From Bacillota bacterium (GTDB lineage: Bacteria > Bacillota_I > Bacilli_A > RF39 > UBA660), in assembly GCA_015059405.1 (NCBI GenBank), contig SVAL01000002.1:62001-126000 (forward strand): 64,000 nt of DNA. The letters run 5' to 3'. Each line of letters begins with the position of its first letter. Position 1 is the first letter of the stretch. The notes under the pieces were generated by a model, which worked only from the letters and a program-made list of their open reading frames with translations, did no database searches and was not told where the DNA came from. Position numbers and translations under genes: made by a program. Shown one piece after another: positions 1 to 2,705 of this stretch.

Positions 1-326
1 CCAATAACACAATATTTATGTTGATTAATTATTTTATTATCATAACTATACTTCATATAATAGTCTAACATCGAAAGTTTTAAAATAATATCGTTTATAT
101 TTTTTTCTTTAATTCTTTTATTAGTATTTATTCGATAACTATGAATACATTCTATAATTTGAAACATAGTTAATTCTATCTGATTTCTTAATACCACATA
201 AAATTTTGGATAATTTATTAGTTCATTACTTATATATAGATTTGTTTGTTCAACCTTAGAAAGAAGAATAAATCCTTTATTATAATTAGTAAAAGTCTTA
301 TCAGAATTTTCAATTGAATTTTCCAT
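1..326 (-). CDS. avd: Avd-like DGR accessory protein (cut by window edge)
   Basis: Starts at the ATG at 326 with a GGAGG site five bases upstream; 108 codons are visible before the window ends. The protein is all-helical and resembles the four-helix-bundle Avd/S23-like family: it reads NELINYPKFYVVLRNQIELT, then FQIIECIHSY, then LSMLDYYMKYSYDNK. In known DGRs Avd forms a pentameric barrel that binds the reverse transcriptase and the template RNA and is required for mutagenic retrohoming. It lies directly downstream, on the same strand, of a template repeat and a variable-region gene, which strongly supports the call. The family is assigned by pattern, not by a search. The reverse transcriptase is expected beyond the left edge. 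Confidence 0.75.
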   Translation of the reverse strand, partial: MENSIENSDKTFTNYNKGFILLSKVEQTNLYISNELINYPKFYVVLRNQIELTMFQIIECIHSYRINTNKRIKEKNINDIILKLSMLDYYMKYSYDNKIINQHKYCVI

Positions 327-337
327 TTTTACCTCCA

Positions 338-360
338 CAAAAAAACTCCATTTAAGGAGT
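338..360 (-). terminator. Short hairpin with T-run between template repeat and avd
   Basis: Minus-strand stem ACTCC/GGAGT with loop TTAAAT, followed by seven T residues and then the GGAGG site of avd. It could end the template-repeat RNA or attenuate read-through into avd. The stem has only 5 bp, so the call is weak. Confidence 0.4.
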
Positions 361-560
361 AAAAAATCATAACTTTCCTAATATTATCATTTTTTATATA
401 CAAAACATGTATATATATTTAGGAACCTAAGTTCACAAGGTATAAAACTTGTTTCTCTACTTTGAAGTATAGGAATAACCTTCATAAGCAATATAACATT
501 ATATTATATGCCACCATTCATAGTAAGCCATAACCAACTACACTAAGTTAAAGCGAGAAT

Positions 561-662
561 CTGGACGCAGGCTGTTAGTATTATTAACATTGTTGTTGTT
601 CACATTACCTGTATTGTTAACGTTCCATTCGTTAGCATTTGTTGAATTGAAGCCGGCCGGGC
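561..662 (-). repeat. DGR template repeat (TR)
   Basis: 102-bp non-coding template matching 880-981 without gaps (offset 319). The coding strand is rich in AAC/AAT codons, which can mutate to about 15 amino acids but never to a stop. Of 38 adenines, 17 differ in the variable region, and no other base differs. The first 23 bases (561-583) and the last 15 (648-662) are identical in both copies; these are the candidate IMH end and 5' anchor. The flank at 663-700 is GC-richer than its surroundings and is not shared with the VR; it probably belongs to the folded template RNA. A possible promoter upstream on the minus strand (TTGGTA, 17 bp, TTATAG) is weak. The 327-560 stretch holds no other gene I can support. 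Confidence 0.95.
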
Positions 663-763
663 GAGGACGAAAGCCCGAGACCAGGAAGAAGCAACCTGCA
701 ATTAACAGTTTTAACCTATAACTATATATTAAAATAGTTACCAAAATTAATTAAATTTGAGAT

Positions 764-791
764 AAGTTAAAGACGAGGGCGTCTTTAACTT
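764..791. other. 12-bp perfect hairpin downstream of the VR gene
   Basis: Perfect inverted repeat AAGTTAAAGACG / CGTCTTTAACTT with a four-base loop (AGGG on +, CCCT on -), 11 bp past the stop of the target gene and about 90 bp past the end of the VR. DGRs commonly need a hairpin or cruciform with a four-base loop downstream of the VR for retrohoming. No strong T-run follows on the minus strand, so it is a poor terminator. Confidence 0.55.
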
Positions 792-802
792 CGTACTCAT
801 TT

Positions 803-2263
803 CTAGCTAGTTTTAACTACATAAGGATCAGCACTTGTTCCTGACCCTGTTGCCAGTGCGCCAGTTGACAGGTTAATAACTGGACGCAGGCTGTTAGTAT
901 TAGTAACATAGTAGTTGTACACACGACCCGGATAGTCAACGTACCATACGCGAGCATATGTAGAAGTGAAGCCGGCCGGGCTCATTGTCCATATTGAATA
1001 ACTTCCATTATATAAATAATAATTTGAGTTAGGTTTTCCATAATATCCACCTGCATGTATTACTTCATCATATGTTATTAATCCTACTTTACTATTTAAA
1101 ACACCTTTTCCATTTCCATCTGTTGTACATTTAAAATCAGGTGTATAAGCAGTATATACTGCCATTGTTGCATCACCACTTGTATAACTTGTTGAATATT
1201 TTACTTTTGCTTGTTCACAAAATTTTCCTGTTGCTACATATGAATCGTACCCTTTATCTTCAATATTAGTTTTGTACCAACTCTCTACTTGTGTTTTTGC
1301 ATTACTTCCATTTGAATAATACATCTTATCAAATGTATTATAAGTACTATTAAATGCATATCCACCAGTACCTACTCTACCATCTAATATTAATCTTACT
1401 GTTCCATCTTCATTTATTCTTATTATTTTCCATTTTAATCCAGCAAATTCAACATTATTATTTGCAACATTTCCTCTAAAATAATATGTTGTTCCACCAT
1501 TTGTATTATTTGATGAATATAATCCACTTGCATCAGTTGTATTATTACTTGATGTTGTTAATGTTGGTGTTGCTGTAATTGTTGGATTATTTTTCTTTAT
1601 TAGATTAACTAAACTACTTCCACTTTGTGCCTTTTCTTCTTCTACAGTTGCATAGTTATCTCCTTTTTGTTGAAGTGTACATGTACTTTCTCCATCTCCA
1701 ACATTTCCTTCACTTTCTGATACTAATACAACTAAATCAGTATCTGCATCAACATTAAATCCATTCCAATTATTTACTGCTGTTATAGTTGTAACTTTAC
1801 CACTTGTTGGTTTTGATAATTCTAGTCCTGTTTCTATTTGTTTTCCTTGCTCATTTAGTTTTGCTTGGCTTGTTGGATATAATCCATATCCAGCACTATC
1901 TTTAAATGTATATCCATAAGTATATGAAGATGTCTCATCATCATATTGAATTAATACATATGCCCAGTAAGCATTACTTGCTTGATGCCATGCTCCAAAT
2001 GGATTTGTTCCTCCTCTTTCTAAGGCAATACATTCTACTGGTACTGCATAAATTGTATTTTCTCCAGTAAACGTATATGTTAAATCATTTACTTCATTTA
2101 CCATTGCTGTTATATAGTTTCCTATTGTTGATACAACAGTCTTCTTTCTTGACTGTGTAATATACTTTGTTACACTTGGTATAGCTATTGCCATAAGTAA
2201 ACCTAGTATTACTATTACAGCTAGTAACTCTATTAACGTAAACCCTTTTCTTTTTTTCTTCAT
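803..2263 (-). CDS. DGR target: prepilin-like protein with C-terminal variable region
   Basis: 486 residues from the ATG at 2263 (GAGGAG site upstream; an in-frame GTG three codons earlier is less likely). Residues 6-30 carry a class III prepilin signature (KGFTLIELLAVIVILGLLMA): basic leader, G before F, E five residues into the hydrophobic helix. This is the form processed by a prepilin peptidase and assembled into pseudopili. The middle is Thr/Asn-rich. The C-terminal third begins near YYFRGNVANNNVEFAGLKWK and ends SLRPVINLSTG, a layout typical of C-type-lectin-like DGR target domains. The variable stretch runs from PAGF to SLRP (encoded by 880-981); 13 of its residues differ from the template, mostly template Asn changed to Tyr, Arg, Thr or Asp. 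The likely role is a surface-displayed, hypervariable ligand-binding fibre subunit. The pilin and VR parts are clear; the fold of the C-terminal domain is inferred. Confidence 0.9.
   Translation of the reverse strand: MKKKRKGFTLIELLAVIVILGLLMAIAIPSVTKYITQSRKKTVVSTIGNYITAMVNEVNDLTYTFTGENTIYAVPVECIALERGGTNPFGAWHQASNAYWAYVLIQYDDETSSYTYGYTFKDSAGYGLYPTSQAKLNEQGKQIETGLELSKPTSGKVTTITAVNNWNGFNVDADTDLVVLVSESEGNVGDGESTCTLQQKGDNYATVEEEKAQSGSSLVNLIKKNNPTITATPTLTTSSNNTTDASGLYSSNNTNGGTTYYFRGNVANNNVEFAGLKWKIIRINEDGTVRLILDGRVGTGGYAFNSTYNTFDKMYYSNGSNAKTQVESWYKTNIEDKGYDSYVATGKFCEQAKVKYSTSYTSGDATMAVYTAYTPDFKCTTDGNGKGVLNSKVGLITYDEVIHAGGYYGKPNSNYYLYNGSYSIWTMSPAGFTSTYARVWYVDYPGRVYNYYVTNTNSLRPVINLSTGALATGSGTSADPYVVKTS
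880..981 (-). repeat. DGR variable region (VR)
   Basis: 102-bp copy of the template repeat at 561-662, inside the 3' part of the prepilin-like gene. It differs at 17 positions, every one a template adenine on the coding strand (T on the + strand: template positions 584, 591, 594, 600, 605, 606, 610, 612, 615, 618, 624, 629, 632, 633, 639, 643, 647). Replacements include T, C and G. Both ends are identical to the template. This is the pattern left by Avd/RT adenine mutagenesis followed by one-way transfer. Confidence 0.96.
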
Positions 2264-2368
2264 TTTACACACTCCTCTATTCTATATTTAAATAATACTA
2301 TAATTCGACTTGTTTTTTATTTTGTGCAATCATACGATTGCTCAAAAAATAATAATATTCTTTTTACA

Positions 2369-2397
2369 TTTACACTAATGTTTTTATATGTTATTAT
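2369..2397 (+). promoter_or_regulatory. Promoter of antisense RNA
   Basis: TTTACA (-35, 2369-2374), 17-bp spacer, TATTAT (-10, 2392-2397) preceded by TG in the extended -10 position. Predicted start near 2404, pointing into the 3' end of the small toxin gene on the other strand. Confidence 0.7.
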
Positions 2398-2403
2398 GTA
2401 TGT

Positions 2404-2512
2404 AGATGAAGGTAACTTCATAAAATAAAAAGGATACATTTGATTTGGGCATCAAATGCATTCCCTTTCTGGTTCTGCATCTGAAATCACGTTAGTGACT
2501 CAGATGCTTTTT
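2404..2512 (+). ncRNA. Putative type I antitoxin RNA
   Basis: About 110 nt, bounded by a strong sigma-A-type promoter (2369-2397) and an intrinsic terminator (2477-2513). It contains no convincing ORF with a ribosome site. It runs opposite the small hydrophobic peptide gene (2512-2589) and reaches its stop codon, the tail-to-tail overlap seen in TxpA/RatA- and BsrG/SR4-type pairs. Role inferred from layout. Confidence 0.6.
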
Positions 2513-2513
2513 T
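2477..2513 (+). terminator. Terminator of antisense RNA
   Basis: Stem GCATCTGA/TCAGATGC with an inner TCAC/GTGA helix and GTTA loop, followed by seven T residues. The 3' edge overlaps the stop codon of the toxin gene on the minus strand. Confidence 0.8.
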
Positions 2514-2589
2514 ATTTCAGTAATAAAAGTATTACCACTATAAATAGTAGTATGATTATAATAAATAGAGATTTTTCTCTTTTTGTCAT
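2512..2589 (-). CDS. Small hydrophobic toxin-like peptide (type I TA)
   Basis: 25-residue ORF beginning MTKREKSLFIIIILLFIVV and ending with four Leu and a Lys: a charged start, then one membrane helix. It is preceded by a G-rich ribosome site (GGGTGGTGGTAG) about five bases before the ATG. A TATAAT box at 2656-2661 gives a likely start near 2649; no good -35 is visible. Size, single helix, antisense RNA on the other strand and complementary mRNA ends all match type I membrane toxins of Firmicutes (Fst, TxpA, holin-like toxins), although the sequence is not one I can assign to a named family. The rest of 2264-2705 holds no other gene. Confidence 0.6.
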   Translation of the reverse strand: MTKREKSLFIIIILLFIVVILLLLK

Positions 2590-2705
2590 ATCTACCACCA
2601 CCCTTCTTTTACCCCTGAATTTAGAAGGGAAAGCATCTGATTATCAAATGTATCAATTATATTGTTATTCTTTTGTTTTATTTTTCCTATAAAAAAAAGG
2701 TATTT

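Follow-up and report, generated by a model that had tools for sequence, protein, structure and literature searches.

A predicted prepilin-like surface protein of a Bacilli-like bacterium carries the variable repeat of a diversity-generating retroelement at its C-terminal tip

In a 64,000-nucleotide stretch of contig SVAL01000002.1 (positions 62,001 to 126,000 of the forward strand, assembly GCA_015059405.1), from a Bacillota bacterium of the GTDB lineage UBA660, two 102-nt repeats, an avd-like gene and a reverse transcriptase (RT) gene make up a diversity-generating retroelement (DGR), whose variable repeat lies at the end of the gene encoding the target, which is predicted to be a prepilin-like surface protein. 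We refer to the whole stretch (G000:C15:62001-126000) as the window; the assembly amounts to 1.54 Mb in 21 contigs and is 79% complete, and bases flanking the window were also examined. All components lie on one strand in the order target, hairpin, template repeat (TR), spacer, avd-like gene and RT (window positions unless a contig or locus is named):

803-2272, minus strand: target gene, with a prepilin-type N-terminus, a pilin domain of ~200 aa and a likely C-type-lectin-like tip holding the variable repeat (VR)
880-981, minus strand: VR, residues 429-461 of the 486-aa target and thus C-terminal, with 17 adenine-only differences from the TR
764-791, minus strand: hairpin, a perfect 12-bp stem with a CCCT loop, 88 nt beyond the VR and just after the stop codon of the target
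561-662, minus strand: TR, 102 nt, with 38 coding-strand adenines and 14 AAC/AAT codons in the frame of the target
339-560, minus strand: spacer between TR and avd-like gene, 222 nt
1-338, minus strand (C15:61943-62338; L003:11943-12338): avd-like gene, 131 aa, its 3' end outside the window
G000:C15:60928-61968, strand of the TR: RT, 346 aa, 32 bp past the left end of the window

The TR and VR align without gaps over 102 nt at 83% identity, at the very positions given in the initial annotation, and their likeness stops abruptly on either side. On the coding (minus) strand the TR consists of 38 A, 24 C, 21 T and 19 G, and every mismatch falls on a template adenine (17 of 38, against 0 of the 64 remaining bases), a count identical to the one first reported; the hypergeometric chance of 17 random positions all hitting the 38 adenines is 3.0e-9. 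All three other bases serve as replacements, again as first described (A to T 8, A to C 5, A to G 4). The TR adenines occupy codon positions 1, 2 and 3 in 18, 15 and 5 cases, two of the five third-position adenines differ in the VR, and 14 of the 33 VR codons are altered relative to the TR, 13 of them non-synonymously. AAC and AAT codons mutated at their adenines can specify 15 possible residues and never a stop. The GC content is 42% in the TR, 51% in the VR and 25% in the window. When the TR region was compared with the whole assembly by blastn, the TR and the single VR were returned, with no third copy. This A-only pattern naturally suggests at least one past round of VR mutagenesis and says nothing directly on present activity.

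The initial annotation had read the repeats as a DGR, a reading that the lack of a neighbouring RT gene was to count against; a DGR-type RT and an Avd-like gene do come after the TR on its strand, the RT just outside the window. The RT carries the motifs YMDD and GNQTSQ, the latter with a G and a last Q that do not vary among 15 family RTs; of the solved structures, the RT of the BPP-1 DGR is its best match (8ub7, E 3.9e-28; next match 3.1e-10). It overlaps the avd-like gene by 26 nt. The Avd-like protein matches NF033474 with an E-value of 7e-7, under the curated cut-off, and its AF2 model (four helices, mean pLDDT 89.7) resembles Bordetella Avd chains (4dwl and 8ub7, TM 0.71-0.78, E from 1.3e-3 upward; for the 4dwl Avd, TM 0.71-0.76, rmsd 1.3-2.2, E 3e-3 to 1e-2), although the top structural match, ahead of these chains, is the S23-family four-helix protein 2rld (E 4e-4). 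The DNA beyond the VR has a folding z of -3.6, and the hairpin found there is likely the retrohoming hairpin/cruciform. The spacer folds as RNA weakly better than shuffles (z -2.2) and, by analogy with the BPP-1 model as set out in passages of PMC12875486, likely belongs to the template RNA read by the RT complex. The RT, avd and target reading frames are all open and uninterrupted. Rfam returned a single sub-threshold match, taken as chance, and a consensus promoter scan of window positions 1-2600 found fewer promoter-like sites than in shuffles, hence it was uninformative. Through the A-only TR/VR differences, the relatedness and motifs of the RT, the Avd-like fold and the hairpin, the locus is identified beyond reasonable doubt as a complete cellular DGR, its membership of this class being near certain.

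Two further candidates were set aside. A phage origin of the element was rejected, as the RT matches 92 phage records, every one at <60% identity; among viral contigs, none held an exact 34-base piece of the TR and none, by the patterns used, encoded a relative of the target. A second RT in the assembly (C8:106779-107420; L004:8396-9592 on C8), of 398 aa and group II/retron-like, was rejected as part of the DGR, with no repeat pair of at least 60 nt in the surrounding 18 kb and top scores, below cut-offs, to group II/retron-type models.

To place the locus among its relatives, GTDB genomes were scanned with the 15 family RTs, and 80 of 515 loci were taken. Their titles name mostly Bacilli, with some Tenericutes, Erysipelotrichaceae, Candidatus Onthousia and others, and the sample source, named in few, is sheep rumen (L090 among them), buffalo rumen or goat rectum (L109); the bacterial family of the window has members in animal rumens and guts. 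An Avd homologue is present in 79 of the 80 related loci (L118 is without one), the Avd and RT matches lying <300 nt apart in 71 of 80 (this locus counted) and 628-673 nt apart in nine, where something lies in between (L093, L096, L098, L103, L110, L113, L114, L142 and L158). A TR/VR pair was detected in 39 of the 80, always on the RT strand, and the detector's misses may stem from short contigs or thresholds. One locus, L153, has one TR and two VRs (L153:5443 and L153:4354) in neighbouring genes. Over the 41 VRs, this locus included, 618 of 635 differences are at A. In a control on the choice of base, repeat pairs of at least 50 nt with at least five mismatches were counted in 81 loci when one kind of base in one copy accounted for 80% or more of the mismatches: on the RT strand, 42 pairs were found for A (related loci plus this locus), two for G and none for C or T. 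The two G cases (L162 and L167) are A-type pairs read in reverse, and the single T case is this locus on its other strand.

These counts bear on whether a retroelement is involved at all, since the repeats could in principle be an ordinary duplication that diverged through selection on surface residues or through gene conversion between paralogues. The tip family is hypervariable regardless, and potential donor paralogues exist; even so, this explanation, to which we give practically no credence, is already contradicted by the lack of any change at the non-adenine sites although third-position adenines do change, by the single VR in the assembly and the adjoining RT and Avd, and by the recurrence of the same pattern in the same orientation in almost half of the related loci.

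Of the 41 VRs, that of this locus included, 37 are followed within 220 nt by a hairpin of at least 8 bp; after the TR such a hairpin is seen in 10 of 41. The loop-flanking motif TGA-CTC(A/T/C)-TCA is found in 22 of the 41 VR loci (relatives among L090-L167), mostly 80-130 nt past the VR, and occurs 32 times in total on both strands of all 874 kb; the hairpin of this locus has neither this apex nor a GRNA loop. One could take the cassette for a genuine DGR that is now inactive, its VR the frozen product of past editing: the hairpin lies further from the VR than in phage DGRs (4-34 bp in passages of PMC3240598) and its loop differs, and the RT is without a close relative in the genomes of the genus examined. 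We consider such a relic improbable, as its three genes are intact, the 64 non-adenine sites, where a dead element should have gathered changes by drift, are unchanged, and a hairpin follows the VR here as in most related loci. The DGR is probably still active; with all 17 differences at the gene end confined to template adenines, the cell likely keeps rewriting what the tip of the target would bind.

The listed open reading frame (ORF) of the target begins at GTG, and a probable ATG start gives the 486-aa protein. Its leader, KKKRKG/FTLIEL, is of class III, with a G/F cleavage site, Glu5 and a hydrophobic helix, and the N-terminus beats the cut-offs of both PF07963 (N_methyl, E 3.1e-9) and TIGR02532. 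Signs of a lipoprotein N-terminus were not found, there being no cysteine in the first 77 residues counted from the likely ATG and a prepilin leader instead. In fold comparisons of the AF2 model (mean pLDDT 88) with VIA-align 2, the N-terminus aligns with FimA and PAK pilins, whilst the matches of the tip include many C-type lectin domains and the C-terminal domain of Legionella Lcl; the tip is likely C-type-lectin-like. Elsewhere in the assembly, one prepilin peptidase match adjoins a two-domain T2SSF protein on C8, a PilB-like ATPase is encoded on C5, and a separate cluster, which we take to be Tad-like, is found on C6 (L083:3938-8535: AAA_31, T2SSE and two T2SSF proteins), directly behind a prepilin paralogue.

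The target is one of a large family. The assembly has 31 N_methyl matches, and such matches occur in 73 of 88 genomes of relatives, this one included, the top counts being 33, 31 and 31 (this genome). The pilin domain of the target is common to 26 proteins, the remaining 25 sharing 65-85% identity with it over at least that domain, and their C-termini vary: nine, the target among them, have the target's kind of tip, and the rest have DUF285/PARCEL repeats or unlike sequence. Two smaller pilin-domain proteins, encoded near each other on C4, could be fibre subunits. Beyond the RT on C15 lie two further paralogues (L003:8909-10399 and L003:1764-3338), one with a tip of the target's kind and no VR, the other with a DUF285/PARCEL tip.

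Prepilin-fused targets are also found elsewhere. Thirteen of the 41 VR genes are cut at their 5' end and were left unclassed; among the 28 with an uncut start, five have the prepilin motif, all above the PF07963 cut-off (this locus, L102, L137, L151 and L162), which makes four of the 39 related loci with a TR/VR pair. We labelled 27 loci on the RT tree and left out L145, whose RT sequence was truncated to 26 aa, giving 26, with L109 labelled 'other' despite an ORF of just 85 aa. The five prepilin loci are not monophyletic (fewest changes 4; approximately unbiased test, p 0.0006; some branches are long), therefore the pairing of prepilin and DGR likely came about, by origin or by swapping, on more than one occasion.

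The canonical leader, the PilB-, PilC- and PilD-like parts in the assembly and the 26 pilin-domain proteins, with the two small C4 proteins as possible fibre subunits, lead us to infer that the target is displayed on a pilus. They weigh against a narrower role for the prepilin N-terminus, as merely a membrane anchor or that of a pseudopilin, in which case the tip would be rewritten on a protein outside the pilus. We regard this as a serious possibility, albeit the lesser one, given that the target is far longer than its PDB pilin matches (61-208 aa) and that 23 of the 28 uncut VR genes lack a prepilin motif, many having another hydrophobic N-terminus.

Variability in the wider protein family follows the adenine codons of the TR. 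A search for target homologues found 4017, of which 120 were listed and 81 aligned near full length. Among these 81, mean entropy is 3.45 bits at VR residues whose TR codon has an adenine in its first or second position, against 1.72 bits in the other VR codons, 1.40 bits in the tip before the VR and 0.98 bits in the pilin domain (P 8e-7). NNY codons never encode K, M, Q, E or W, and these five residues account for 88 of 1096 (8.0%) at the 14 AAY columns. Their share is higher at other variable columns (1096 of 4679, 23.4%) and also, beyond the VR, at the variable columns of the tip (18.5%). Given the high entropy at adenine codons and the shortage of these residues there, a substantial share of the homologues resemble products of a DGR, but 51 of 80 hold at least one of the five at the AAY columns.

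Within this genome, the paralogues were not recently generated from this TR. We considered the lectin-tipped paralogues as extra targets and rejected them, as blastn with the TR led to the single VR, and eight paralogues keep the third base of the TR at just 4-8 of the 14 AAY codons and differ from it at 36-62% of non-adenine sites. One paralogue, C8:138553, has zero K, M, Q, E and W across the 14 AAY columns, a hint only that it could be an old VR.

A different form of variation is predicted for many of the paralogues. The assembly has 17 G runs of at least eight (31 overlapping hits), and all 17 come after TTGACAAAAG(A/T)CC and before TAAGAT, TATGAT or TAAAAT, sitting within the spacer between -35 and -10 (16 nt with nine G, 15 nt with eight). 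Compared between genes, tract length is 8 G in three tracts and 9 G in 14. Fourteen of the 17 runs are directly upstream of prepilin genes; of the other three, one is at a contig end, one stands before a gene for a likely lipoprotein and one before a membrane protein gene that a prepilin gene closely follows:

G000: C1:42168, C5:25868, C5:80683, C8:8043, C8:46078, C8:138516, C9:14449: poly-G upstream of prepilin genes
G000: C11:14167, C12:25738, C13:34246, C15:6910, C15:53340, C15:60401, C19:40051: poly-G upstream of prepilin genes
G000:C5:64907 and C8:160486 (L183, L192): poly-G before the likely lipoprotein gene and before the membrane protein gene by a prepilin

Two further prepilin genes have an interrupted G run in the same promoter frame, no poly-G tract is present upstream of the DGR target gene, and the promoter pattern is absent in the 8 other genomes of the genus examined. 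One paralogue (G000:C8:46115, L069) has a single in-frame TGA ~110 codons in, with its poly-G promoter intact. In poly-G phase-variable promoters of the Neisseria type, a homopolymer between -35 and -10 sets the length of the spacer. Here too the homopolymer lies in that spacer, and the promoters are predicted to be phase-variable by slippage; unlike the Neisseria type, the tract recurs over one prepilin-like family, whose DGR-target member is without it.

Our overall interpretation, in which we have high confidence, is of a complete cellular DGR whose target, predicted to be a prepilin-like surface protein, holds the VR in its C-terminal tip; the DGR likely keeps rewriting this tip at template adenines whilst the rest is spared. 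The TR would be transcribed, and the RT and Avd would copy the TR RNA, misincorporating opposite adenines; the cDNA would then likely replace the VR, with guidance from the 3' end in which TR and VR are identical and from the hairpin behind the stop codon of the target. The edited target would be cut by the prepilin peptidase, and its N-terminal helix would then anchor it or incorporate it into a fibre like a type IV pilus; the likely C-type-lectin-like tip would be presented, and its variable residues would bind a ligand. More tentatively, and with rather less than even confidence, we suggest two layers of surface variation, in which 26 prepilin-like proteins share one stalk with exchangeable tips, at least 14 fixed-tip members being switched by poly-G and one unswitched member being rewritten by the DGR; if so, the cell shuffles its tip repertoire and also invents tips on the same fibre. 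The setting is a little-characterised lineage that includes rumen and gut bacteria, and the paralogue family offers a built-in comparison, in which a common stalk bears either fixed tips under a predicted switch or a single edited tip lacking one, so that what bacterial DGR proteins bind, and when editing beats switching, become testable inside one genome.

The DGR itself is of a known kind, its target and setting are unusual. It resembles that of Bordetella phage BPP-1 (mtd-avd-TR-brt) in its RT, its Avd, the A-only change from TR to VR, the C-terminal VR and the hairpin past the VR, but differs in gene order, which is target-TR-avd-RT. Phage DGR hairpins, in passages of PMC3240598, have GC-rich stems of 7-10 bp and GRNA loops close to the VR, whereas the one described here has a longer stem, a CCCT loop and a greater distance from the VR, and the TGA-CTC(A/T/C)-TCA apex of related loci also differs from GRNA. 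PMC8144416 describes cellular DGR targets in which N-terminal membrane segments are combined with C-lectin VR domains, and the target shares their modular build, with a membrane-linked N-terminus and a C-terminal VR domain; the words 'pilin', 'pili', 'pilus' and 'prepilin' do not occur in the main text of that paper. A passing sentence in PMC6642488 links 'putative pilin structures' to DUF1566 domains in an earlier survey, naming there neither the kind of pilin nor the host, and as in our target a pilin-like part stands alongside a DGR variable domain; pilin-like DGR targets have therefore already been noticed in some form. Our literature search, covering openly available papers without their supplements, did not find DGR together with 'prepilin', which leaves priority unestablished. 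A further parallel is the type V pili of Bacteroides, whose tip pilins are reported to be DGR-diversified (Macadangdang et al., as outlined in a 2025 review, PMC12632263). There too a DGR is directed at a pilus tip protein, yet type V pilins start as surface lipoproteins that are cut N-terminally, whereas the leader of the target is that of a type IV prepilin and the host belongs to a Bacilli-like lineage. Known DGR editing concerns phage tail proteins and anchored surface proteins, and a type IV prepilin scaffold would place hypermutable tips on a polymerising, retractable fibre; the main novelty lies in one edited pilin tip paired with fixed-tip paralogues behind predicted phase-variable promoters.
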